Both the position numbers and the translations under genes were made by a program. The notes below the pieces were generated by a model. The model was not told where the DNA came from. It did no database searches and saw nothing but the letters and a program-made list of their open reading frames with translations. A stretch of DNA of 64,000 bases from Candidatus Bathyarchaeota archaeon (GTDB lineage: Archaea > Thermoproteota > Bathyarchaeia > Bathyarchaeales > SOJC01): contig JAOZHR010000010.1 of the NCBI GenBank assembly GCA_026014805.1, forward strand, positions 62,001 through 126,000, written 5' to 3'. Positions 2,921 to 49,978 of this stretch are shown here, one piece after another (the first letter of the stretch is position 1; each line of letters opens with the position of its first letter).

Positions 2921-3235
2921 GGCTGGTGAGCTGGCGGATGGCTCCGAGCTTACTGAGAGCTTGAGGAAACTCCGTCCACCGTGCAGACTTGCAATATCCG
3001 TTAAGGATTTAGGGCGAGAGTCCTGGCAACAGAACAGAAACGAAACGTCCGTCCGTGCGTGTGACGATGATGCATGATAAGTTGCTGAAGGATGCTGGAT
3101 GTGAAGCGGTGAAACGGCTGTCCTGCAAGGTGAAAGGGCAAATAGACGCTTATGAGGACTGCATGAAGCGTGGGTAGCCCGATTAGCTGAATGCCATCTT
3201 TGAACAGAAGGCGGGTTACGACCAGTACACCAGCC
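2921..3235 (+). ncRNA. rnpB: RNase P RNA, archaeal type A
   Basis: The catalytic RNA that trims tRNA 5' leaders. The ends pair as the P1 helix: GGCTGGTG (2921-2928) with CACCAGCC (3228-3235). Conserved blocks appear in the right order: GAGGAAACTCCGTCC (CR-I), AGGGCGAGAGTCC, the ACAGAAACGAAACG region, then GGGTAGCCCGATTAGCTGAA and GAACAGAAGGCGGGTTA near the 3' end (CR-V). The length of about 315 nt is typical of type A. It is followed within 55 bases by an integrase gene, and its 3' end recurs elsewhere in the window, so it appears to be the target of integrative elements while staying complete. Confidence 0.93.
3211..3235 (+). repeat. putative attachment site at rnpB 3' end
   Basis: The last 25 bases of rnpB contain GGGTTACGACCAG followed by TACACCAGCC. 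Close variants occur at 47431, 49955 and 57291. An integrase gene starts 55 bp downstream. This suggests the 3' end of rnpB serves as attB/attL for several elements. Confidence 0.5.
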
Positions 3236-3289: not shown

Positions 3290-4633
3290 ATGCGGTTCTT
3301 TGAAGAGTTGCTGAAGTTAGATTCTGATTGGAGAACTTCTGAGTATGCTAGTGTTGAGATGTGGATTCGCAGGTTGCGTCGCAGAGGATCCGTCTCAACT
3401 TCAATGGCCTATTTCAAGTTGCTGGCTTGGTTTGTTAGGTTTACAGGGCTTTCCCCTGATGAGTTTGTCAAGTTGCCGAAGGATGATGTGGCTTTTAAGG
3501 TTCAAAGTTTTTGTGACAGGTTTAGTGATGAGGGTAAGAATAGCACGGCTTTGAATGCTATGAAGGCTTTGAAGAGTTTTTTGAAGGCTAACAAGTTTAA
3601 GCTTGAGGAGTTAGAACTTGACAGTTCCTACAGAGTTATGAAGAGGCCTGAATATGTGCCTAATAAGGAAGAAGTTTACAGAATGGCTACTGTTTGCGGC
3701 TTGAAGTGGAGGGCGATAATCTTGTGCTTGTTTCAGTCTGGCTTGAGGAATAGTGCGTTAAGGGCTTTGACGTATGAAATGGTTAAGGATCAGCTGGAAA
3801 GCGAAGGGTTTCCAATAAGAGTCCACATAACCAGTGAGTTGAGAAAGGTACTCCCAGATGCCTGCAAGGAAGGCGTGGATTACTGGACATTCTTCGGCGC
3901 TGAGGCAAGCGAAGCGTTAAGGCAATATGTGAATTGGAGGAGAGAAAAACGTGGAAAGACCGAAGAGGACGAGCTGCTGTTTCCTTCTGATTCAAGGAGC
4001 TTAAGCAAAGAGGATCGGCTGAAGAAGCCCATGGACCAATGGCATTTAACGAGGATTGTAAAGAAAGCTGCTCGGAGAGCAGGAATCAAGAAGTGGCATA
4101 CCGTAAGAGCTCATAGTCTAAGGAAAACATTCAGATCGGTTCTAGACAGTGGGTATGTCGACGGGGGACAAATGGCAGAAGATGACAAAGAGTATCTGAT
4201 GGGGCACAAGCTTCCAGGAGCCAAGGCACCATATCACAACGCAAACGTAGACGTCCTAGCTCAGAGATATATGAAACTGAATTGGGCACACGTGCACACT
4301 TCTATCGAACAATTAAGAAAGAAACAAGTTGTAGACATGGCGAAGCTACTTGGGTTTTCAGACGAGAAAATAAAGAAAGTTGAAGAAGCCCTAGCCAAGT
4401 ACGAAAAAGTAGACGAAGCACTTGAAGAAATCAAGAAGCTAAGCCTTGAATCCCACAAAGAAAACGACGAAAGAAACAGCGTGAACAATTATAATGGAAA
4501 TGGAAACTGCAGCAAAAGTGAAATCACAATAGTTCAAGGAGAACAAAAGCTAATCAGATTCATGAGTGAAGGTTGGGACCTTGTTAAAGAGCTGTCTAAT
4601 GACCGGTTCATACTAAAGAATTGTTACAACTGA
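3290..4633 (+). CDS. tyrosine recombinase (integrase)
   Basis: A 447-residue site-specific recombinase. An N-terminal SAM-like core-binding region (about 15-105) precedes the catalytic domain. The catalytic arginine is in SGLRNSALRAL (R153). The HxxR box is HSLRKTF (H275, R278), followed by MGHK (H306). The nucleophile tyrosine lies in APYHNANVD or QRYMKLNW (Y315 or Y327). A C-terminal extension of about 100 residues is predicted coiled coil and ends in an Asn-rich linker. The 5' half of the gene uses TTG/TTT-rich codons and the 3' half is A-rich. Its position at the rnpB 3' end identifies it as the integrase of an element using that site. Confidence 0.85.
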   Translation: MRFFEELLKLDSDWRTSEYASVEMWIRRLRRRGSVSTSMAYFKLLAWFVRFTGLSPDEFVKLPKDDVAFKVQSFCDRFSDEGKNSTALNAMKALKSFLKANKFKLEELELDSSYRVMKRPEYVPNKEEVYRMATVCGLKWRAIILCLFQSGLRNSALRALTYEMVKDQLESEGFPIRVHITSELRKVLPDACKEGVDYWTFFGAEASEALRQYVNWRREKRGKTEEDELLFPSDSRSLSKEDRLKKPMDQWHLTRIVKKAARRAGIKKWHTVRAHSLRKTFRSVLDSGYVDGGQMAEDDKEYLMGHKLPGAKAPYHNANVDVLAQRYMKLNWAHVHTSIEQLRKKQVVDMAKLLGFSDEKIKKVEEALAKYEKVDEALEEIKKLSLESHKENDERNSVNNYNGNGNCSKSEITIVQGEQKLIRFMSEGWDLVKELSNDRFILKNCYN

Positions 4634-4769: not shown

Positions 4770-4806
4770 CAGTGGAGATATCTCCCGCACAACCCCATTT
4801 TTTCTG
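4770..4806 (+). repeat. dispersed palindromic repeat, copy 1
   Basis: CAGTGGAGATATCTCCCGCA followed by a C-run and T6. The 12-nt core GGAGATATCTCC (4774-4785) is a perfect palindrome. The upstream bases (GCCGGGGTGAGGTAGCCTC) look like a degenerate tRNA 3' end on the minus strand. It lies between convergent genes. A partial copy may also lie at about 4705-4720. Confidence 0.7.
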
Positions 4807-4866: not shown

Positions 4867-6234
4867 CTATAGTTTCATTTCTTCTCTTCTCAAATATTCC
4901 TTGTACATTTGACGAATATATTTTTGGTCAATTACCTCAAATCGAGGATTCTTTGCGCTATTTGATGCTACTCTTCTAATCTCTTCGATAACAAAAGGAG
5001 CTGTTTCACACGGATTCAAATAGAGCACTAATGCATGGTCAATAGAAAACAGTGACCCACACTGGCGGTATAATACATCTCCTTCACCCCTTTGCCTTGA
5101 AATAGGATCTGCCTTTATAACGATATATACGCCTTGTTGCAGTGAATAGATTACTTTGTCTGCTATCTCATATCCAGAATGCAGTTTTGGTTCAGTATTT
5201 GTTAATTTCGCAAGAATTCTAATCCAACAATCTCCTTGCTTTTTTTCCATACAATCTCTACACTCGTTTTCAGACACACTAGGTTTGCATTTTTCTCTTA
5301 TTTTGGTTACATAACTCTGAACCTCAAGAGCGTTATCCTTAGGATTCAAAAACGGAAACAATTCCTGAAATTTGAAAAAGGTGGAAGGTGTCAAATTCCT
5401 TGCCAAAACACTTTGGATATTGTCCTTTTTTGTTTCATCCGCACATATGAAACAGGCCTCAAGAATCATAGGAGAGCATGACCAATCGACGTGGTGTACA
5501 CTATTGAGGGCGTGAATGAAGCGATTTGCTATTATTTCTTTGATTCCTGATTCTGTAAGATCTTTCAACCATTGCATTCTTGTTATCAACCGAGCCAAAA
5601 TAAGAATCTGTCTGCGCGCGTAGTTTTCAACTGGATTTTGGATCCAATTCATCAATTTTGAGACAATTCTAGCACGTAGTTCGCCATGCCCTTCATATTG
5701 CCTTAATGCCTTGAGATATATCATCAGGTGATGAGGACTTAAATCTCCATTTTGAACATGTTTTTCCAATTGAGAAGGAAGCCGCTCTTTTACATCAACA
5801 TATTGGTTAGGCAAGTGTGCAACAGCGGAGGCTAACATAAAATCTACCCACCGCGTATTTGGTGATCTCATGGCCCTTTCCAAGAACCTTTTGGAATATA
5901 TTAGAAAATCTTCTTTCGCGGATTCATTATGAGGAAAACCAAACCCTGCAACTATTTCGAATGCTGTTGTCCACTCTAACGAATTTTGTCTTTCATTGCC
6001 TCTTTCAGTAGGATCACGATACTTATAGTAATCATTTGCTGGATCTCTTTTGAAAAGATTCGGATATCTTTCTAGATAGTTTTCCCATTCTTCCCCCAGA
6101 GTTCTAAAGAGGTAATAAGAATTCAAAAAGAAAGTCTTTACGCCATATCTCGGCTCTTCGATGCTTTTCATATACTTATAGTAATTTTTGTTATGTTTGG
6201 TTATCCAATAATTAGTTAGATCTAAGTAGTTCAT
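4867..6234 (-). CDS. hypothetical protein, helical body with possible nuclease-like C-terminal domain
   Basis: A 455-residue protein not recognised as a named family. The first 300 residues are helix-rich and repeat-like. Next comes a cysteine cluster, CRDCMEKKQGDC. The last 110 residues have a mixed alpha/beta look: HSGYEIADKVIY, GVYIVIKADP, then ALVLYLNP and a helical tail. An acidic residue followed by an I-K-A strand resembles a PD-(D/E)XK-type core, but this is weak. The start overlaps the end of the upstream nucleotidyltransferase gene by 4 bp, so the two are translated together and probably form one functional module. Confidence 0.65.
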   Translation of the reverse strand: MNYLDLTNYWITKHNKNYYKYMKSIEEPRYGVKTFFLNSYYLFRTLGEEWENYLERYPNLFKRDPANDYYKYRDPTERGNERQNSLEWTTAFEIVAGFGFPHNESAKEDFLIYSKRFLERAMRSPNTRWVDFMLASAVAHLPNQYVDVKERLPSQLEKHVQNGDLSPHHLMIYLKALRQYEGHGELRARIVSKLMNWIQNPVENYARRQILILARLITRMQWLKDLTESGIKEIIANRFIHALNSVHHVDWSCSPMILEACFICADETKKDNIQSVLARNLTPSTFFKFQELFPFLNPKDNALEVQSYVTKIREKCKPSVSENECRDCMEKKQGDCWIRILAKLTNTEPKLHSGYEIADKVIYSLQQGVYIVIKADPISRQRGEGDVLYRQCGSLFSIDHALVLYLNPCETAPFVIEEIRRVASNSAKNPRFEVIDQKYIRQMYKEYLRREEMKL

Positions 6235-6659
6235 CCTCTTCCCTTCTGATACAATACTGAAAAGCCATGCTTGAAAGAAGTGCTCAAAGAAGACTCGCCC
6301 TCTATTATTGATATTAATTCATTATAGGTTATGATTGATACGTCAATTTTGATGTCTTCATTCTCAAGGTTTTCTTTCAGTCTTTTATACAATTGCTCCA
6401 AAGGCCAGAAAGCTGCTTTGGAAGATACGCACACTATATCCAAATCGCTGTTTTTTTCTATCGAAAACTTTGCACTCGAAATAGTAGAACCATGTAGTAT
6501 TAACATTATCGGAGATAAAAACTCAAAATAATTCATCAGTTTATGTCTGGAAATCCCATTTGGCAGCATATTTGGATGGAATTCAACATGAGATTCGATA
6601 TTTGCCAGTGCATTAACTAATAATTCATAGTTTTTGATCATTCTCGACAGCACGTACAC
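6231..6659 (-). CDS. nucleotidyltransferase-domain protein (MNT-like)
   Basis: A 142-residue protein with a polymerase-beta-type nucleotidyltransferase fold. The hallmark GST...DLD motif is visible: HGSTISSAKFSIEKNSDLDI at about residues 54-73, with a later strand IKIDVSIIT that can supply the third acidic residue. Minimal nucleotidyltransferases of this type often act as antitoxins or as AMP-transferring partners (family knowledge). Here it is first in a two-gene unit, overlapping the next gene by 4 bp. The partner is not an evident HEPN protein, which makes the pair unusual. Confidence 0.7.
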   Translation of the reverse strand: MYVLSRMIKNYELLVNALANIESHVEFHPNMLPNGISRHKLMNYFEFLSPIMLILHGSTISSAKFSIEKNSDLDIVCVSSKAAFWPLEQLYKRLKENLENEDIKIDVSIITYNELISIIEGESSLSTSFKHGFSVLYQKGRG

Positions 6660-6849
6660 TTCAGTTGTTTGTTTTTGATATTCGATTACTAATTATTAAC
6701 TATTAACCAAAATCGAATCCGTACCGTGATTAGGCGTTCGACATTAGCGGTAATTGCCCGAATGCACACGCTACACTAAATAAATAGTACTATTCCATGA
6801 TTCGTCGTTCAGTATTTTATTAGTAGTTGCAGAAACGGAAGCAGGAAAG
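6660..6849. other. intergenic, AT-rich
   Basis: Upstream region of the nucleotidyltransferase operon. AT-rich blocks near 6685-6705 and 6775-6790 could hold its TATA element on the minus strand. No gene is seen. Confidence 0.4.
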
Positions 6850-6902
6850 TTTTGGGTTGGGGTGGGATTTGAACCTCCCACAGAGGAGATATCTCCCGAT
6901 AT
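6850..6902 (+). repeat. dispersed palindromic repeat, copy 2 (left half, with tRNA T-arm-like sequence)
   Basis: On the minus strand this reads as a tRNA-like 3' end (GGTTCAAATCCCACCCC) preceded by the palindrome GGAGATATCTCC (6885-6896). No matching 5' half of a tRNA is present. The right part of the repeat is missing here and is found at 10590-10617, so the DNA between may be an insertion into one repeat copy. Confidence 0.6.
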
Positions 6903-7047: not shown

Positions 7048-7124
7048 TGGCGGGACCGAGAGGATTTGAACCTCTGTTTTAGACTTAGCAGGTCCACGAT
7101 CTTTCCTGGCTAATCTACGGTCCC
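7048..7124 (-). tRNA. tRNA with anticodon GCU (serine codons AGC/AGU), class I shape
   Basis: A full cloverleaf folds on the minus strand. The acceptor GGGACCG pairs with CGGTCCC, followed by U8-A9. The D-stem is GATT/GATC with a GG-containing loop. The anticodon stem TGGAC/GTCTA has one G-U pair and the loop CTGCTAA. The variable loop is AAAC. The T-stem AGAGG/CCTCT carries the loop TTCAAAT. Discriminator G and an encoded CCA follow. All canonical positions fit. The oddity is a 4-nt variable loop where serine tRNAs normally carry a long arm. It sits inside the putative mini-element, 13 bp from the RHH gene. Confidence 0.8.
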
Positions 7125-8708: not shown

Positions 8709-9386
8709 TTGGTTTCAGTATCAGATCTAACAACCTATTCTTATTGCAAGAGGAAGGTCTGGTTATTAAGAAAAGCAAAGATACAAACTGGAGAAAGAGA
8801 TTGGAATTCAATCGTGAAATATCGTCTAATACGTTCTATATCGAATCTTGTAGACTCAAAAGATAAGATACATTCTTTGACTGATTTTATGTATGAGACT
8901 CTTCATGAAGTTCCAGGAGAAATAGTCGATACAGAGATATACTTAGGAAGAGAAAAGTTGTCTGGACGGATTGATGTCATTAGAAAAACAGAAGAAGGTT
9001 ACATTATTCAGGAAGAGAAATCATCCGATCCACCAATGGGCGATGGAGTGTGGCCAGACCATTTGCTACAAGTAAGTGCATACGCCTTTCTTGCGGGAGG
9101 TGGCTCTAGATATTCGCCTATAGTTGGTGCAATAATTATTTACAATGATTTGAAACCAAGAAAAGTGAAACCAAATCCAGAAAAAGCCAAAGATGTTCTT
9201 GAGAAGGTGATACATCTCTTGGAGAGTAATATTCTACCTAAGGCAGAAGAAAATGCTAAGAAGTGTCGCAAGTGTAATTATTATCCACTTTGTCAGATTC
9301 TGCCTCAAGAAGGAGAACTAGAAGATGCTGAAATAAAGAACCTCTTCACAAGAGGGAAAGAAGTTCTTAGCATTTCTAGAACCTGA
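8709..9386 (+). CDS. Cas4-like PD-(D/E)XK nuclease with Fe-S cysteines
   Basis: A 225-residue RecB/Cas4-family nuclease. It has the four-cysteine cluster signature of Cas4: C13 in SYCKRKVW, then C186, C189 and C195 in CRKCNYYPLC. The catalytic motifs are GRIDVIR (D89), IIQEEKSS (E102, K104) and QVSAYAF (Q121). Known members cleave single-stranded DNA ends. Cas4 proper trims CRISPR spacers, but no cas1, cas2 or array is present. Solo Cas4-like genes occur in archaeal viruses and plasmids. It lies inside the mini-element beside a recombinase, which supports a role in element replication or recombination. Confidence 0.85.
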   Translation: MVSVSDLTTYSYCKRKVWLLRKAKIQTGERDWNSIVKYRLIRSISNLVDSKDKIHSLTDFMYETLHEVPGEIVDTEIYLGREKLSGRIDVIRKTEEGYIIQEEKSSDPPMGDGVWPDHLLQVSAYAFLAGGGSRYSPIVGAIIIYNDLKPRKVKPNPEKAKDVLEKVIHLLESNILPKAEENAKKCRKCNYYPLCQILPQEGELEDAEIKNLFTRGKEVLSISRT

Positions 9387-10646: not shown

Positions 10647-11825
10647 TTATACCAAATCTTCGACAAAGAAAAAGTCATGCCACGTTTTGAGCACTTTGGG
10701 AAAATTCTCTATTTCACTTTTTTCGATGAACCAGCGCTCTTCGTCGGAAAGACCTTCAATCTGTTTGATGAGTCTAAGGATATCTTCCTTTCTTGTGGAG
10801 AAATCGGATCTGAGTAGTTCCATCGCTTTTTCGCCATTCATCTTATTGTTTATCATGTTTGCCAAAAGGGCTGTTCGTGCAGCATAGAAACGAACATCGT
10901 CCCAGGCATAACTCATCCCTCGCACAAGAAGTGGAAGGAATCTTTGCAGACCTCTTCGTAATATCCTAAATTCCGAATGTGCTCGCGCGCGCTGTCCTTT
11001 CCTAGAATGCAACTTTTTTTCAATGATTTCGTCACCAACCTGTGGCGGTAGGCTTGCAACCTGGCATGTAAAAACCAAATCGTCGAAACATTCTCCCGGA
11101 GTGAACTTTCTACCGCGAACTCTTGACTGAATGGTCACAGCTTCATAGTACGCCTCAGCACATTCCTTGAAGCTGAAGTCAAGTTTTATGAGTTGGTTTA
11201 TATCGTGAAAATGTTTTGCGTATTCAAGGCCATTTCGACTATGTACTAATTGGCGGCCAATAGTTGTCGGGCCAATTGTGGAAATTTTGTCTCCAATAAG
11301 TGCTCCAACGGTTGGTGTTACGATTTCCACTTGGGAATCGAAAAAAGGAGTTTTTAGAGGGGTTTGAACAGTAGAAAATTCAGGCTTTATTCCCATCGCG
11401 TCAAGTAAGAAGACTCGGCTTCGGTCAGTGATAGGCGGTGTCTCAATTCTATAAAGGTAAAATGGGATCTCATCACTAATCCTTGCATCTCTTTGACTAT
11501 ATGAGAATCCCTCTTTATCAAATTTCTGAAAAACTCTTTCGAGAACATTTTCAAACTCTTCTCTTGATAGATCTACGCATATGTCAGCGTCGACGCTCAA
11601 TCTAGTCCATATACCCCTCTTACTACTCAATATGACTTGGACTGCGGATCCTCCTTTGAATATCAGATCTAATCCTTCCTCTACAAGTTGGCCAAGATAC
11701 TCAAGACTGAGGATTGCTCTCTCTAGATTAGGTATGCTTCTAATGCCTCCTTCTGACAAGAAAGAGCTAATCTCCTTAGGATCATATGTTGACTTTGTGC
11801 CAATTGTCTTAGCAGTGTCGATCAT
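10647..11825 (-). CDS. abiEii: AbiEii-like nucleotidyltransferase toxin
   Basis: A 392-residue protein of the AbiEii/AbiGii nucleotidyltransferase family, the toxin of type IV AbiE abortive-infection systems. The motif FKGGSAVQVIL at about 57-67 is the family's KGG(S/T) block, and TRLSVDADICV at about 75-85 supplies the D-x-D metal ligands. Family toxins transfer nucleotides to tRNA or other substrates to stop growth. Its start overlaps the antitoxin stop by 4 bp, the normal AbiE order (antitoxin first). A GCGCGCGC tract lies in frame near 10984. Confidence 0.8.
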   Translation of the reverse strand: MIDTAKTIGTKSTYDPKEISSFLSEGGIRSIPNLERAILSLEYLGQLVEEGLDLIFKGGSAVQVILSSKRGIWTRLSVDADICVDLSREEFENVLERVFQKFDKEGFSYSQRDARISDEIPFYLYRIETPPITDRSRVFLLDAMGIKPEFSTVQTPLKTPFFDSQVEIVTPTVGALIGDKISTIGPTTIGRQLVHSRNGLEYAKHFHDINQLIKLDFSFKECAEAYYEAVTIQSRVRGRKFTPGECFDDLVFTCQVASLPPQVGDEIIEKKLHSRKGQRARAHSEFRILRRGLQRFLPLLVRGMSYAWDDVRFYAARTALLANMINNKMNGEKAMELLRSDFSTRKEDILRLIKQIEGLSDEERWFIEKSEIENFPKVLKTWHDFFFVEDLV

Positions 11826-12649
11826 TCTTTATCAGCTCCTTTGACCATTGTCAGAATGTTACGAAGTGTCTCTTTTTCTCGTCTAATCCATAGAACGTCT
11901 TCAGGTACGCGAGAGCCGATTCTTGTGTCTTCTCTCTTGAGACTATAAAGGAAAATGAGCATTTCTCGAAAAAGACCTCGTCTCCCTGCATATCTCAGCA
12001 AACGATCAAAATTCATCCCGTCTCTTTCGACCATATTTGCAAATATGAGTCCAAGCTCGAAAAGATCAAAACTCAGGCCCATTCTAGTAGTAAGAAAATA
12101 CAAGTCTAACCATATCCGTTCGGGTGTGGGAATTAGATTGTTTTCAAACCAAACTAATCCGTAGAGTTCTTTCCTTTCAAGGATAAATATCGGCTGTTCT
12201 GGGTAGTAGGCATATTCTTGAAAATCTCTCTTGTATGGACGCAATACAGCATGATACCCTTTTTCTAACAGTGCATCACGGATACTCGCAGACAGCATCT
12301 TGGATGTTTCGACAAAAATAAGATCTCTGCCGACCGCGTAATGAGCATAGTCACCAAGCATGTTCAAAGACCAGACAACGAAATCTGCCATTGGGAAGCG
12401 CTCTCTGAGATCTTGCCCGAGTCGAATGAGTTCTGGAGTGGGTTTGACTATTGCGGTACTCCTTTTCCTGCGTTGATATACCCCTCTTCCTACTCTTTTG
12501 ACGATTTCCATTCTTGCGAGTCGGCTTAAGTAGTTCTTTGCTGTTATCCAAGAAACGCCTAGGTCTTTTGCGATGTCTTCTATTGAAACTGTCTCATTCT
12601 TCGAGACATATTCTATCACTTTTTGTGGCACTGATGATGAAGATCTCAT
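11822..12649 (-). CDS. abiEi: AbiEi-like antitoxin with winged-helix N-terminus
   Basis: A 275-residue protein. The N-terminal wHTH spans about residues 5-65 (VSIEDIAKDLGVSWITAKNY followed by the wing around VGRGVYQ). The rest is an alpha/beta domain as in AbiEi-type antitoxins, which bind their own promoter. It overlaps the toxin gene by 4 bp. Direct repeats of ATATCGA immediately upstream of the start are candidate operator half-sites. Confidence 0.75.
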   Translation of the reverse strand: MRSSSSVPQKVIEYVSKNETVSIEDIAKDLGVSWITAKNYLSRLARMEIVKRVGRGVYQRRKRSTAIVKPTPELIRLGQDLRERFPMADFVVWSLNMLGDYAHYAVGRDLIFVETSKMLSASIRDALLEKGYHAVLRPYKRDFQEYAYYPEQPIFILERKELYGLVWFENNLIPTPERIWLDLYFLTTRMGLSFDLFELGLIFANMVERDGMNFDRLLRYAGRRGLFREMLIFLYSLKREDTRIGSRVPEDVLWIRREKETLRNILTMVKGADKE

Positions 12650-15970: not shown

Positions 15971-16008
15971 GCAGTGGAGATATCTCCCACATCTTCCTCA
16001 TTTTTTCT
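15971..16008 (+). repeat. dispersed palindromic repeat, copy 6
   Basis: GCAGTGGAGATATCTCCCAC then ATCTTCCTCA and T6. Perfect palindrome at 15976-15987. It lies in the 300-bp spacer after paralog B, which holds no gene. Confidence 0.7.
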
Positions 16009-24017: not shown

Positions 24018-27014
24018 CTAATCTGCTCCCATAGTATTTTGCATTGCTCGTAAAGATGCAATAATTGCATTGTAAATGAGGCGAAGTACCTTATGTGCCT
24101 TGTTAGGGTCATCAACTCCAAGAACTTTTAACATTTCCATATCAAGTCTTTTTCTTTCTTTCGAAGGAGCAGTATACTGGTCAATAAGTGACGACCATTT
24201 GAAGTTTGAGAGTTCATCATATAGACTGATTAGCTGGGTTTTAGCAGAATCAGATAGCTTAGTCAGATCCAAGACTTGCATTTTTCGTAGCGGTTTCCCA
24301 TGCAGCTTCACCCATGACCCTCTTGTCACCGTAATTCTTGCAAGCAATAAGTAGAAGAAGATTGCTGAGTTCAGCCAGAGCACAATGATTTTCTCATCAG
24401 CCCGTGCTAGTCCAGATATTCCCCACATGAAAGAGCACATGAAGATTGGCCGATTACTACGAACCGCAAGCAATTTGGAACCAGGTGCCGCAAGATCAAT
24501 TCTCCCTGGCAAACATATTCGCGACGACCCAGATTCCACGACTTGGGGCCATTCTGCTCTAAATGCTTCTAAGGCAGTTCTGGCTTTTTCTTCACTCAAA
24601 ATTGCGTAAAACAACTTTTTATCTCCAGTAAATGGCTTAATAATCACAAAGTCTCCATGTCCTGTCAATTCAAATCTGTTTACGTAGGCAAATCTTCTAA
24701 GAGCAGCGGTTACTACGTCCTTTGGTACCACGAATACGTCTCCTGTGCCCTTGTCGCGAAAATGAAAACTCTCCTTAGTCTTATCTTTGTAAATAAGACG
24801 GTCATGTTTCATGAGGGCTCTTTCTTCAGTTCTGCAAGCTACCAGAGCATCTCCGCCAAATCTAGTCAGTGAATGCCCTTTACCTGTCCTGCTTCTTCCA
24901 TGCACTACCTCGGCAACCTTCAATTCAAGAAGTTGAGCTTCTTCAAGGTGAGCAAATGTAGTAGTAAGACCACTATGTTCTATGATTCTGTGAAGCTCGT
25001 CACCAGCCACCTTGTACCTTTTGTCTAGGTCGGCAACTAGACGCGTTAAGGTTTTGCCTTCAGGAAGCAATTCGCGTTGATTAAAAGATGTTGCAACGCA
25101 TAAATTCGTTTCCAACCGTTCTCCTGTCGCTGCGCATTTTTGAGCCATATCAGCGATACTTTCGACATCAGCCACAGACCAAGACGTAGGTGAGGTCTTT
25201 GTCAGCAAAAGTACAGAATTGTGAGAATCTGTCGGAATTTTCTTCTTTGCAACAAATAACATTTCTGAGAACATTGTGTTCTCAGAGAAAGCAGAACGCC
25301 CTTGTCCGATTACTATATACTCGATAGAGTATTTTGAGACTAGAAACCTAGTCAGTTCACTGAAGTCGCCGCCAATAAGAGTTGTAAAGGGCATCACGAC
25401 TGCCATTCTTCCATTAGAAGTTAGAAACTTGTCCGCAATGCATATGAAATAGAGATGATACCCAATATTCCCTTTCACAAGCGAAGCATAACGTGGATTT
25501 GCTCTGAACCTTCTCTTCAGGTCATCTTTATAGGTTTGTGACATTCTGCGTGAACTTGTAAACGGTGGGTTCATTATGACTACGTCAGCTTGATTTAGCT
25601 CAAAGCTTTCGTTTGATCCGTGACCTACAATAACGGCACCGGACCTTGCAAGCTCTGATCTTTTAATTTCATGACGCCCATTTCTGAAAGCATCAATTTT
25701 TCTTTGACGAAAGGCATCTCTGATCGTTTCGCCAAAAGGTTTAATTTTTGTACCAACGCGTGCTCGGGTGGAATCTATCGTCGCTATTTGCAAATGTTCT
25801 GTGTAACTCAATGGTTCTTGTAGTAATAATTGAACTGCAGCTAGATGAGCTGAGAAGGCCATTACATCGAGACCAGTGAGCTGCTCTTGCAGAAACGTTT
25901 TATGCAATTCAACTGCTTCTTTTTTGGAAGCTCGGGACAGCTTTTTCTTTCTATGATATGCCGAAACCAGAAGAGTTCCACTTCCACAGGCGGGGTCAAG
26001 AACACGCACTTCAGGGTCAAGAATTGAAAGTGCCGCAAGGAGATCTCCCGCTGCAGAATTTGTGTAAAATGCAGCGACAGTCTTACGGAATTCAAGAGGA
26101 ATGATCTCATGGAAAACTTTGCCGATTAGGTCGTGTGTTGAGACTGAGTGGATCAGTTCTTGGATTAACCGAGTCACTCTTAGAGAACCATCTTTGCTCA
26201 GTTTTGGATCGAAAAGCGAGGCCACATCGACCTCAAAAATTGGGCGATAATTCTTTTCCAAAACTTTTGAAAAGTAATTGTTCTTGATGTTTAATGGGGA
26301 AGACATATCCTCAACATCAATCTCGGGATAGAATCCGGTCTCTCGACGAAGAATATAATAGAATAGTAGCTGGTTGACAAAAAGAAAGGCAGCTGCCCTA
26401 CTAAGCACAATCTTTTGTTCTTCTTTCGGTATAGAATCGGAAAGAACTGAGTCAAAAAAGTTGACTCCTCCAAAAACTTTCTTGAGTTTGTTCTTGCTTG
26501 CTTTTCTAGCTGATACATGAAGAATGTCAACACCTTGACGGAGTAACCTTACAACAGATGCATCAGAAGGCTCGAGGGGTTGCTTTAGAAAATCGATTCT
26601 TTTCTGAATTACTTCATGAATTATCTCAATTACACCATCAAATTTAGCAGCTCGCCATACCTTCCTTTCATGTTCAGGATTAGCCAAGAGATGCACGATG
26701 AAGGATTCCTTTCTTGAAGAAGGATAAACAACAGCGAAGACTTCACCCAAATTTGTTGTTGCGCCTATTAATTGTTGATATTCCTGCGCAGAAGAGAATG
26801 CATCAAATTCTTTACTCTCACCAAGCTTTCCACTAATGATGTGTGTACCTCCATCCATCAACGCAACATCTGGTTTTCTCGGTCGGCCTCTCAGAATGGG
26901 AAAATGTAACTCAAAATCAGCTGAAGCATAACCTTTTTTCCTCAATTTCTCTGCAAGCCTTGCATTCCAGGTGTTCTCCCCGGCTTTGCCCTGCGAAATT
27001 AGCGGAAAGCTCAT
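24018..27014 (-). CDS. single-chain restriction-modification enzyme (N6-adenine methyltransferase with N-terminal nuclease-like domain)
   Basis: About 998 residues. The SAM-binding motif VLDPACGSGTLLVSAY lies near 336-351 and the N6-adenine catalytic motif NPPF near 480, in type I/IIG order. The N-terminal 150 residues contain KPDVALMDGGTHIISGKLGE, compatible with a PD-(D/E)XK nuclease core (acidic residue, then a strand with K). The C-terminal 400 residues would be the target-recognition domain. The frame extends 21 codons upstream with a hydrophobic run, but the ATG at 27014 (MSFPLISQGKAGENTW) is the likelier start. It probably both methylates and cuts; the target site is unknown. Confidence 0.8.
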   Translation of the reverse strand: MSFPLISQGKAGENTWNARLAEKLRKKGYASADFELHFPILRGRPRKPDVALMDGGTHIISGKLGESKEFDAFSSAQEYQQLIGATTNLGEVFAVVYPSSRKESFIVHLLANPEHERKVWRAAKFDGVIEIIHEVIQKRIDFLKQPLEPSDASVVRLLRQGVDILHVSARKASKNKLKKVFGGVNFFDSVLSDSIPKEEQKIVLSRAAAFLFVNQLLFYYILRRETGFYPEIDVEDMSSPLNIKNNYFSKVLEKNYRPIFEVDVASLFDPKLSKDGSLRVTRLIQELIHSVSTHDLIGKVFHEIIPLEFRKTVAAFYTNSAAGDLLAALSILDPEVRVLDPACGSGTLLVSAYHRKKKLSRASKKEAVELHKTFLQEQLTGLDVMAFSAHLAAVQLLLQEPLSYTEHLQIATIDSTRARVGTKIKPFGETIRDAFRQRKIDAFRNGRHEIKRSELARSGAVIVGHGSNESFELNQADVVIMNPPFTSSRRMSQTYKDDLKRRFRANPRYASLVKGNIGYHLYFICIADKFLTSNGRMAVVMPFTTLIGGDFSELTRFLVSKYSIEYIVIGQGRSAFSENTMFSEMLFVAKKKIPTDSHNSVLLLTKTSPTSWSVADVESIADMAQKCAATGERLETNLCVATSFNQRELLPEGKTLTRLVADLDKRYKVAGDELHRIIEHSGLTTTFAHLEEAQLLELKVAEVVHGRSRTGKGHSLTRFGGDALVACRTEERALMKHDRLIYKDKTKESFHFRDKGTGDVFVVPKDVVTAALRRFAYVNRFELTGHGDFVIIKPFTGDKKLFYAILSEEKARTALEAFRAEWPQVVESGSSRICLPGRIDLAAPGSKLLAVRSNRPIFMCSFMWGISGLARADEKIIVLWLNSAIFFYLLLARITVTRGSWVKLHGKPLRKMQVLDLTKLSDSAKTQLISLYDELSNFKWSSLIDQYTAPSKERKRLDMEMLKVLGVDDPNKAHKVLRLIYNAIIASLRAMQNTMGAD

Positions 27015-27109
27015 AACTAAAACTATGAACAATGACTTAATATAAATATAGATTGTGTACTGCAGAAGTATTAACATGAGCTAGCCTTGAAAAACAAATT
27101 GGAGAGAAA

Positions 27110-27250
27110 TGTTTCAAGAAATTCTATTGATGCCAATTTTTTCCGAGTAGCTTTTGTTGATATTTGTGCCAATGCGTCTTAACATAGGGCCCTAGGCTTT
27201 CAATATTTGAACTCCAACGAAATCTCTTATAACAGTAGAGGAATAATGTA
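27110..27250 (-). pseudogene. gene remnant, homologous to remnant at 28876-29133
   Basis: On the minus strand a frame reads RDFVGV and then, after a one-base shift, SNIESLGPYVKTHWHKYQQ. This matches the C-terminus of the remnant at 28876-29133 (RDFVGVSDIKSLGPYVKTQW). Two decayed copies of one gene's tail therefore flank the OLD-like gene. Confidence 0.5.
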
Positions 27251-27302
27251 AAACAGCCACATCTACGAGGTTATTAGAACGCGTTTCCTAAAACATATAG
27301 AA

Positions 27303-28862
27303 GTGGATAATTATCTAAGCATCAAACATGCAGAACTACCCGAATTAAAAGATCTTAACATCATAATTGGTCCAAATAACTGCGGAAAAACAAGTATCCT
27401 GAGAGCTGTGAATTGGTTAAGTACTCTAACTTTGAGAGGTGGTACTCCCGGGTATACATGTAGAATCTGTAAGGTAGTAACGCAGAAAATCAAGAACCTC
27501 GATCCTTCTCTGAATGCTAATATCAATATCAGGGACAAATACTTGACAAAAGGGAAGGTAAAGCTGTGTTTTGGTTATGGGAAAGAGGGAGTCGAACATC
27601 TTTTACCTGAGCTATCAAAAAGGCGAAACTCTATTTCCACCTCTAGTGCTCTTGATGAAGGAACGAAAGTGCATCTGGCCAAAGAATTTGAGAAAGAGCA
27701 GGTTATATGGACTGAAGTGTCTAATAACTTATTAATACCTGAACATGTTTCACCGGTTATATGGAGTGATTTTAAAACAGCGATTCTTGATCACATGCTT
27801 TTTTGTCCAGATGAGAGACTTCAAAGCTATAAAGGTAAGCAGATCCATGAACATATTACTTCAAAGAATCTTGCAGCTACAGATGAGACCCAACTCATCG
27901 AATACCTGAAAGAATTCGTTGATCCCAACTTAGGGAACATTCGACACAATCTCGACTTGATAAGGACGCTAGATAAGACTGATTTTGATACTCCAATAAC
28001 AGAACAGGGTTCGGGTGTGAAATCTCTGATATGTCTGATGACTGATATAATTTCAGAATCCGAGACCAGGATTATTCTAATAGATGAACCTGAGCTTGGT
28101 CTAAGTCCTCTAGGGAAGCAAGATCTCTTGAGATTTTTACTCAACCAATGCAAAGAAAAGCAGGTTTTCCTAGCAACACATGATCCAACATTTGTCAATC
28201 CTATTCTTTGGAATAAAGAAAATGTCTCAGTTTACCTGTACTCACTCATTGACCAAAATTTTGTAAAAGTTAATTTAACAAAAAGCAAACAAGATCCCAA
28301 TTCCTTTGCAGGATTCCTTCCACATACAACAAGCTTAAAACAAGTCCATATTTATGTAGAGGGGACATACGACGTTTATACATTCCAGATTTTTCTGAGT
28401 AGATACCTAAAAAGATTCAGAAATTGGTATCAATTAATTAATAAAATAGGGATATTTCACTTAGCTGGAGATTTCTGGAGTCATCTACTGTATACTATCC
28501 CAAAAGGACCTTACATTTCAATAGTTATCTTGGATGGTGATAAAACAAATATCGCCACCAAAATAGTTAAAGAGTATTCTCAAATCGAAAAGAACCGATT
28601 TCAGCTTTTTGGAACCCTTGAGAAGCTTAGTAAGCTGAAGAGACCAAGACACTCAAATGCCTCGTCACCATGCCCAATTTATTGTTTACAAAGGTCTGAA
28701 ATCGAAGATTACCTTAAGCCTAGACCTTCTAAAAAAAGCGGATGTCCGACAGTGACTTATCAGATGGAAGGTATTCCTAAAGAGATTGTATGGTTGTTTG
28801 ATATAATTCTAAGATGGACAGGTAAGAAAATTGAGAAGCCCAGTGACTTCAATTTTAAATGA
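27303..28862 (+). CDS. OLD-family ATPase with TOPRIM nuclease domain
   Basis: A 519-residue protein of the OLD (overcoming lysogenization defect) family. Walker A is IIGPNNCGKTS (about 21-31), the ABC-type signature EQGSGVKSL, Walker B IILIDEPELGLSP (about 257-269) and the H-loop LATHDP. The TOPRIM domain has VHIYVEGTYDVYT (about 349-361) and ISIVILDGDKTN with the metal-binding D-x-D. Family members are nucleases with antiphage roles, some as part of Gabija-type or single-gene systems. No UvrD-like Gabija helicase is adjacent. The start is uncertain: the frame is open 17 codons upstream of the GTG. Confidence 0.85.
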   Translation: MDNYLSIKHAELPELKDLNIIIGPNNCGKTSILRAVNWLSTLTLRGGTPGYTCRICKVVTQKIKNLDPSLNANINIRDKYLTKGKVKLCFGYGKEGVEHLLPELSKRRNSISTSSALDEGTKVHLAKEFEKEQVIWTEVSNNLLIPEHVSPVIWSDFKTAILDHMLFCPDERLQSYKGKQIHEHITSKNLAATDETQLIEYLKEFVDPNLGNIRHNLDLIRTLDKTDFDTPITEQGSGVKSLICLMTDIISESETRIILIDEPELGLSPLGKQDLLRFLLNQCKEKQVFLATHDPTFVNPILWNKENVSVYLYSLIDQNFVKVNLTKSKQDPNSFAGFLPHTTSLKQVHIYVEGTYDVYTFQIFLSRYLKRFRNWYQLINKIGIFHLAGDFWSHLLYTIPKGPYISIVILDGDKTNIATKIVKEYSQIEKNRFQLFGTLEKLSKLKRPRHSNASSPCPIYCLQRSEIEDYLKPRPSKKSGCPTVTYQMEGIPKEIVWLFDIILRWTGKKIEKPSDFNFK

Positions 28863-47058: not shown

Positions 47059-47360
47059 CAGCCAACGTTTCCATTGCACACGCAGATAATACTCAATGTT
47101 GGGGCCTCACGCTGAGAAGACGCTGGAAGATATCCTCTCTGCTCTAGGGAACATCATGCCTACACATTTTCTAACTTTAGTGCGATTTCACCCACGAGGA
47201 CTTTTAAGAAAGCCGTTGAACACGAAAATAAGGAGCATAGTGGAAAGAAGGAATAGGCTTCTACAACAAACATCTGTTTCACCCTACCTTTTCAGCATTG
47301 CTAGTTGTCGTTGCTTCATAGCCCCTAAATACCTTTATCAAGGATCTTTCTTTGCCCGCC

Positions 47361-47453
47361 CTAGCCTAGTACAAGTTCTTTGGAATACAAGATTAAGAAC
47401 ACATAAAAATTCGGTAACCAGCCTCTTGAGGTTGGGAACGACCAGCACACCAG
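47361..47453 (+). repeat. direct repeat, left copy, with rnpB-3'-end-like tail
   Basis: The last 38 bases (47416-47453) match 57277-57314 with two mismatches; both end in a version of ACGACCAGCACACCAG. A less conserved match extends upstream (CCCTAGCCTAGTACAAGTTC here, CCCTAGCCTGGTAGGAGTTC there). The copies are about 9.86 kb apart and an integrase gene starts 44 bp inside the left one, as in an attL/attR pair. The 300 bases before it hold no gene. Confidence 0.6.
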
Positions 47454-47497
47454 TACCTTATTCGCGTAACCCGACCATAATCAACATACTAATCAAA

Positions 47498-48343
47498 ATG
47501 AAGAACAACGCCAAAAGCGACTACTCAATAAAATTCGTAGACAAATCACTAACATACATCAGCAAACACGCAGACCTAAACCAACCCGAACAAGTAAAAC
47601 ACTTCATAGCAAACAAAAACGTATCCAACGGATACAAAAAGAACCTATGCCTAGCATACAACAAATACTGCAAATACTACCAAATCCAATGGCAAATGCC
47701 AAAATACAGACCAGAGCCAAAGACAATCAAAATACCAACCAAAGCAAAGATAGAAATGCTAATCGCAAGAGCAGGCAAAACACTCGGACTCAAACTACAA
47801 CTCAGCAAAGAAACAGGATTAAGACCCGTCGAACTATGCAACCTCAAAACGAAGGACATAGACCTAGACCAAAGATTAATCCATCCAACAACAGCCAAAC
47901 ACGGCGCACCAAGAACACTAAAAATAAGCAACAGCCTACAAGCAAGACTAGAAAATCACATCAACACAAATAAGCTAAGACAAAATGACAAAGTATTCCA
48001 AGGCGACGCAGAACTATACGGGAAATACTACAGACAAATGAGAAACAGCTTAGCAGACAAACTGCACGACCAAACACTCAAAACAATCCGACTATACGAC
48101 CTCAGACACTACTTTGCTACAATGCTCTATCACAAAACAAGAGACATACTATACGTCAAACAACAACTAGGACACAGACGACTAGAAACGACACTAATCT
48201 ACACACAACTACTCAACCTAAATGACGACGAATGGACATGCAAAACAGCAACCAACGTCAAACAAGCAGAAACACTAATCGAAGCAGGATTCGAATACAT
48301 CGCAGAAAAAGACGGAACAATGCTGTTCAGAAAACGCAAATAA
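47498..48343 (+). CDS. tyrosine recombinase (integrase)
   Basis: 281 residues from the ATG at 47498; the longer frame upstream runs through the repeat and is not protein-like. Catalytic residues: R109 (ETGLRPVELCNL), a K in the THAKHG-like hairpin, the box YDLRHYFATM (Y200, R203, with Y replacing the usual first His), LGHRRLETT (H226) and Y235 (LIYTQLL). The + strand is extremely A- and C-rich and T-poor, unlike neighbours. The N-terminal half is homologous to the remnant at 56765-57000. The stop codon lies inside a 30-bp direct repeat. Confidence 0.85.
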   Translation: MKNNAKSDYSIKFVDKSLTYISKHADLNQPEQVKHFIANKNVSNGYKKNLCLAYNKYCKYYQIQWQMPKYRPEPKTIKIPTKAKIEMLIARAGKTLGLKLQLSKETGLRPVELCNLKTKDIDLDQRLIHPTTAKHGAPRTLKISNSLQARLENHINTNKLRQNDKVFQGDAELYGKYYRQMRNSLADKLHDQTLKTIRLYDLRHYFATMLYHKTRDILYVKQQLGHRRLETTLIYTQLLNLNDDEWTCKTATNVKQAETLIEAGFEYIAEKDGTMLFRKRK

Positions 48344-49812: not shown

Positions 49813-49954
49813 AATCTTTACACGAGCTTCTAGTCATACCGTAACAAGCCAAAAAGCAGATAATAAAACAAGAAACACATGGTAAAACTGCAAAACATAA
49901 TGAGAACAAAGATAGGCAAAAGCAAAACAATAGAATATTACTAAGCCCTAAGAC

Positions 49955-49978
49955 GGGTTACGACCAGCACACCACCCT
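49955..49978 (+). repeat. rnpB-3'-end-like sequence (possible att remnant)
   Basis: GGGTTACGACCAGCACACCA matches the rnpB 3' end (3213-3232) in all but one position. It marks the left border of the SUOX/DUF72/PolB2 gene block. Confidence 0.5.

Follow-up and report, generated by a model that had tools for sequence, protein, structure and literature searches.

Genes for minimal nucleotidyltransferases (MNTs) are among the commonest components of archaeal two-gene modules, and their products are treated as antitoxins of HEPN toxins. In the HepT/MntA systems, the MNT poly-AMPylates the toxin (PMC7641770, PMC11586414), and the MNT gene has been reported to come first in MNT-HEPN dyads (PMC3710099). 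Class I MntA is defined by the motif GSX10DXD, and Mg-ATP is held by the MntA residues D39, D41 and D71 (PMC7641770). Here we describe an MNT gene that is coupled to a gene for a large partner without recognisable HEPN features. The pair is located in a 64,000-nucleotide stretch of a contig (JAOZHR010000010.1) from a Candidatus Bathyarchaeota archaeon, which will be referred to as the window.

The MNT gene precedes the partner gene on the same strand (Table 1). As reported in a preliminary description of this DNA, the two reading frames overlap by 4 bp; the sequence in common is ATGA. The same two genes are present in a congeneric genome, G150, where their order and the ATGA overlap are the same, and where the partner is 91% identical to that in the window and the MNT about 87%. 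Both genes are located where they had been described, and the MNT gene ends at 6231, but the earlier coordinates imply a start at a GTG at position 6659, which would give a protein of 142 residues. The MNT of G150, which is the sole close relative, begins at the ATG equivalent to the one at 6641, and it is this ATG that probably serves as the start codon in the window.

At the DNA level, the similarity between the two copies is restricted to a block that consists of the gene pair and about 65 bp upstream of it, and the edges of this block coincide almost exactly with the pair. No match to the DNA flanking the block in the window was found in the rest of the approximately 28 kb of G150 that was compared. 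The differences between the two copies favour third codon positions, with a dN/dS (NG86) of 0.24 in the partner gene and one of 0.31 in the MNT gene, and judged by this comparison of sequences the pair is under purifying selection. The block-wise identity between unrelated flanks, together with these dN/dS values, argues for joint movement and joint retention of the two genes. The gene pair is a real mobile unit that goes beyond a chance arrangement, as an independent copy in another genome has been kept as a block. It should be noted that only these two copies, both in one genus, were found among the 257 genomes of the class Bathyarchaeia that were searched.

Table 1. Features of the gene pair and of the element that carries it (positions in the window; L012 and P0001 are introduced in the text).
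Feature	Position	Strand	Description
rnpB (archaeal RNase P RNA)	2926..3230	+	Integration target; Rfam RF00373, 189.6 bits
Attachment site (probable), first copy	3208..3235	+	At the rnpB 3' end; 28-nt direct repeat, 89% identical to distal copy
Tyrosine integrase of the element	3290..4633	+	Pfam Phage_integrase, 5.5e-8; convergent with the pair, 233 bp away
Partner gene	4867..6234	-	455 aa; shares 4 bp (ATGA) with the MNT gene
Partner C-terminal module	4879..5337	-	Residues 300-452; putative zinc site and predicted alpha/beta domain; homologous to the ends of L012 and P0001
Partner N-terminal part	5347..6234	-	Residues 1-296; predicted mostly helical, repeat-like helix pairs from about residue 104
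MNT gene	6231..6641	-	136 aa from the ATG at 6641; open reading frame, Pfam and relative
Conserved two-gene block	4874..6706	-	92.4% DNA identity to G150 contig 25; flanks unrelated on both sides
Attachment site (probable), distal copy	49950..49977	+	Bounds an element of about 46.7 kb

The first protein had been described as a minimal nucleotidyltransferase with a GST...DLD motif, and this description holds. The motif reads GST-x12-DLD (i.e. GS-x13-DxD) and is followed by a third Asp in IKIDV, the acidic triad thus being intact, while the matches to the Pfam families Polbeta (E=0.0012) and NTP_transf_2 (E=0.0065) are both below the curated cut-off. In an alignment with MNTs above the Pfam cut-off, the GS, the DxD and the third acidic position fall in matching columns; the three Asp residues correspond to D39, D41 and D71 of MntA, and the whole set is kept in both copies of the pair. 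With its Pol-beta-like domain and three acidic residues, the protein can be classed by its motifs as a minimal nucleotidyltransferase of the Pol-beta superfamily. Its best non-orthologous matches in the 257 genomes include the MNTs of genomes G064 (E=1.2e-6) and G110, the genes of which adjoin genes with strong Pfam HEPN matches. The MNT in the window therefore stems from a HEPN-linked lineage, and its combination with the present partner looks like a partner swap, as its relatives in other Bathyarchaeia adjoin ordinary HEPN genes. A single ordinary HEPN gene is present in the genome that the window belongs to, and it adjoins a different nucleotidyltransferase (NTase) gene on a separate contig. 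No relatives of the MNT were found in viral contigs and plasmids. In PADLOC, it gave only a marginal match to an oligonucleotide cyclase (E=0.0037, residues 64-103), and since the protein is also far shorter than CD-NTases, its identification as a CBASS-type cyclase was rejected.

The partner had been regarded as an unfamiliar, non-HEPN protein. Indeed, searches of Pfam, NCBIfam and PADLOC returned no family for it, and with the marginal cyclase match of the MNT as the only PADLOC result for the pair, no known PADLOC defence system was recognised. A match of the partner to a known HEPN or housekeeping family, which had been named as the finding that would speak against a new pair, was looked for and not found, and both identities were rejected. 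The partner was said to have no evident R-x4-H motif. This is not strictly true, as there is one (178-RQYEGH-183), but the residues that follow are G-E, so that the x-Y of RX4HXY is missing and the protein lacks the HEPN signature as well as a HEPN profile match. A relative at 91% identity exists in the same genus only, and no relatives of the partner were found in viral contigs, phages, plasmids and GTDB genome contigs. For the N-terminal part, a Pfam match to ELMO_ARM with an E-value of only 0.15 was obtained, and an AlphaFold2 model of the whole partner (mean pLDDT 44, with 50-67 reached only at residues ~140-280) was too weak for a fold assignment. Several borderline genome matches (L004, L008-L011, L013, L016, L022-L027, L042, L043 and L053) were set aside as ordinary proteins whose identities were recognised by eye, among them ABC transporter genes, a helicase, a radical SAM protein, a DUF89-like protein, tgtA, Cdc6 and others.

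The blastp matches of the partner that point further afield are confined to its C-terminal side. They concern L012, a Bathyarchaeota TPR protein (JAOULW010000008.1), and P0001, a Rubrobacter radiotolerans plasmid protein (WP_143533741.1). Residues 300-452 of the partner matched the end of L012 with E-values of 5.8e-5 at the genome level, 1.2e-5 in the reciprocal search and 2e-7 in the pairwise comparison. P0001 was found with L012 as the query (tblastn, E 4e-5), and it matches the partner directly with an E-value of 1e-4 and L012 with one of 5e-11. The cysteine cluster that had been noticed earlier is part of the pattern C316-x8-C325-x2-C328-x7-C336 in the partner, which is followed by H352-x-G354-x-E356-x-x-D359, K374 and a later RQ. 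Apart from the four Cys residues, the H-x-G-x-E-x-x-D pattern and a Gln further on, the three proteins have little in common. On these alignments, the module of about 150 residues is a genuine one that has been conserved in archaea as well as in bacteria. The N-terminal parts of its carriers are unrelated, which fits a portable effector or binding domain, and L012 and P0001 carry the module at the C-terminus, as effector domains do.

The end of the partner had also been described as possibly nuclease-like. What stands of this description is a conserved C-terminal module; its assignment as a nuclease is a tentative one, as no PD-(D/E)XK family matched the C-terminal end in a profile search and the acid of the (D/E)xK motif is absent. 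At this position the partner has V372-I-K374 and the other two members have L-A-K and F-A-K, a hydrophobic residue thus replacing the acid. Nonetheless, the module may be an active Mrr-like PD-(D/E)XK nuclease with a rearranged site (E356, D359 and K374), in which case the pair would consist of a cleaving effector and a nucleotidylating brake. This more specific version of the explanation that we favour below is rather doubtful. Like Mrr-type PD-(D/E)XK effectors, the module is located behind helical domains at the C-terminus and keeps an E and a D, with the Lys in two of the three members, its placement in P0001 being ambiguous. An AlphaFold2 model of the C-terminal end, built from two sequences, has the element order alpha-beta-beta-alpha-beta-alpha-beta-alpha, with the D at the first strand and the K where the second one ends, and this order would fit an Mrr-like fold and hints at one. 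However, with a mean pLDDT of 50 the model is too weak for a fold assignment, and the best Foldseek hit had an E-value of 0.16, with no PD-(D/E)XK nuclease among the hits listed. When the module was aligned with 11 archaeal Mrr_cat domains by hhalign, the score was 17.9 in the expected register, as compared to 10.3 +/- 1.7 for column-shuffled controls (n=200, best 19.3), but the probability was 1.6%; this profile-profile likeness is suggestive and not significant. The sub-threshold genome matches include the REase-like L049, and L052 has a similar score (E ~0.02). In contrast to Mrr-type effectors, the module has a four-Cys cluster ahead of the domain and, besides lacking the (D/E)xK acid, shows no significant profile or fold match.

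Both copies of the pair are found in mobile surroundings. The location of the window copy just inside an island anchored at rnpB, as proposed earlier, was borne out: an integrase gene directly follows rnpB, and the 28-nt sequence at the rnpB end recurs at a distance, so that the pair is cargo of an integrated element of about 46.7 kb. The neighbours of the G150 copy encode DUF5677, DUF6884 (PADLOC PDC-M57A, 6e-37), an AGOG-like glycosylase, a NosD-like protein and an integrase, the last of which has no DNA similarity to the integrase in the window.

Several further genes were observed in the element. A second tyrosine integrase (47096-48343, Pfam 7.6e-18) holds within its coding region a third copy of the rnpB-end repeat (47428-47455, 71%), which may represent an SSV-like attP that lies within the gene for the integrase. 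A second NTase module is formed by AbiEii (10647-11825) and AbiEi/DUF6577 (11822-12649), likewise with a 4-bp overlap, and a Cas4-like PD-(D/E)XK nuclease is encoded at 8709-9386 (Pfam 4.9e-14). The region 24018-28862 comprises a gene for a 1019-aa Eco57I/N6 methylase-type protein (type IIG-like), divergent from one for an OLD/AriA/GajA-like ATPase; both are likely to be defence genes.

The perfect palindrome GGAGATATCTCC occurs at 4774-4785, 6885-6896 and 15976-15987, two of these copies flanking the pair, and it is often embedded in the wider context AAAAAATGGGG..GCGGGAGATATCTCCACTGC. There are 13 exact sites in the genome, as compared to 0 for the reversed control, and 6 sites with at most one mismatch in the window, as compared to 0.16 expected. 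The palindrome is possibly a regulator site; a role as cassette ends was rejected, as the motif is found genome-wide and is absent around the G150 copy. RNA folds at the flanking palindromes were no better than those of shuffles, and a scan for promoters and terminators of the sigma-70 type, a model that does not cover archaeal promoters, found no more than in shuffles. On the minus strand at ~6840-6875, GTGGGAGGTTCAAATCCCACCCC resembles the end of a tRNA T-arm, the rest of the tRNA being absent, and may be what is left of an attachment site used by a different element; a tRNA-Ser(GCT) is located at 7048-7124.

The most plausible function of the gene pair is that of a toxin-antitoxin or antiviral pair, with the toxicity, the direction of control and the antiviral role being inferred from analogy. 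More precisely, and with somewhat less than even confidence, we propose that it is a mobile type VII-like (HepT/MntA-like) regulated-effector or abortive-infection module, in which a non-HEPN effector is restrained by the MNT. The MNT would be translated first and would act as an Mg-NTP-dependent nucleotidyltransferase on the 455-aa partner, most likely by AMPylating a Tyr, Ser or Thr, thereby keeping the partner inactive. Upon loss or titration of the MNT, for example during virus infection or when the element is lost, the partner would become active; its helical body would sense or bind something, and the putative zinc-binding alpha/beta module at its C-terminus would damage or block a nucleic-acid target, leading to dormancy or death. 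This proposal is favoured by the 4-bp overlap with the MNT gene first, the active site kept in both copies, the HEPN-linked lineage of the MNT, the joint mobility of the two genes, the mobile and defence neighbours of both copies, and the presence of the module at the C-terminus of TPR and plasmid proteins. Counting against it are the finding of just two copies in 257 genomes, the GSX13DXD spacing, the absence of the RX4HXY acceptor motif from the partner, and the failure of the PD-(D/E)XK assignment on the (D/E)xK acid and on significant profile or fold matches. In addition, 455 residues make a large toxin for a classical toxin-antitoxin pair.

The chief rival to the proposed restraint by the MNT reverses the roles. 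The MNT would then be a toxic or signalling enzyme that modifies either a small molecule or RNA (tRNA or another kind), like AbiEii or MenT, and the partner would be a regulator, a substrate-presenting subunit or a sensor, with a module that only binds zinc and nucleic acid. Such a reversal is in line with the NTase toxins known from AbiE (PMC3985639) and MenAT (PMC10435456), with the initial view of HEPN partners as substrate-binding subunits of MNTs (PMC3710099), and with the lack of the (D/E)xK acid in the module. Yet the protein has the minimal 136-aa form of MntA antitoxins, its relatives adjoin HEPN genes, its gene is the first in the operon, its match to a cyclase is marginal, and it is much shorter than a CD-NTase. 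We consider the reversed roles distinctly unlikely. The idea that the pair is element cargo with a role outside toxin-antitoxin systems and defence, for example in the regulation or maturation of an RNA or protein of the element, fits the integrated element in the window and the integrase near the G150 copy, but it is the most improbable of these explanations, as two copies in unlike surroundings with unrelated neighbours fit transferable cargo better than a core gene of the element and defence-type neighbours are found around both.

In its strongest form, the proposal that the MNT restrains its partner would describe a new enzymatically neutralised toxin-antitoxin or antiviral pair, in which a large zinc-dependent non-HEPN effector is held back by the MNT through nucleotidylation, and in which the C-terminal module of this effector is a novel effector domain, seldom encountered and present in both archaea and bacteria. 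In this full form it is unlikely to hold. If it were true, MNT antitoxins would be portable brakes that are not specific for HEPN proteins. Whether nucleotidylation serves generally to restrain effectors could be put to the test with a mobile MNT whose partner is unrelated, and the four-Cys/HxGxExxD module provides a defined pattern to seek in uncharacterised effectors.

Among the systems compared, AbiEi/AbiEii (type IV, with an NTase toxin) is likewise a two-gene module with an NTase in mobile or defence DNA. However, it combines an AbiEii-type NTase with a wHTH protein AbiEi, whereas the NTase described here is minimal, and neither protein of the pair gave an AbiEi or AbiEii match, nor the partner a wHTH match. 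L012 and P0001 have in common with the partner the homologous module with its four Cys and H-x-G-x-E-x-x-D, but they have other N-terminal parts and no MNT was recognised beside them. The HepT/MntA systems (HEPN-MNT, type VII) resemble the pair in being two-gene operons with a minimal Pol-beta-type NTase first and a GS...DxD...D site, and in being mobile and common in archaea; the relatives of the window MNT are themselves HEPN-linked. They have the MNT gene 5' of the toxin gene and overlapping or adjacent to it, which is the arrangement in both copies of the pair. They differ in that the partner described here is a non-HEPN protein, about three times larger and without RX4HXY, and in that the MNT has GSX13DXD in place of GSX10DXD. 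The pair is therefore placed outside the defined HepT/MntA class, and by analogy it may nevertheless work like HepT/MntA.
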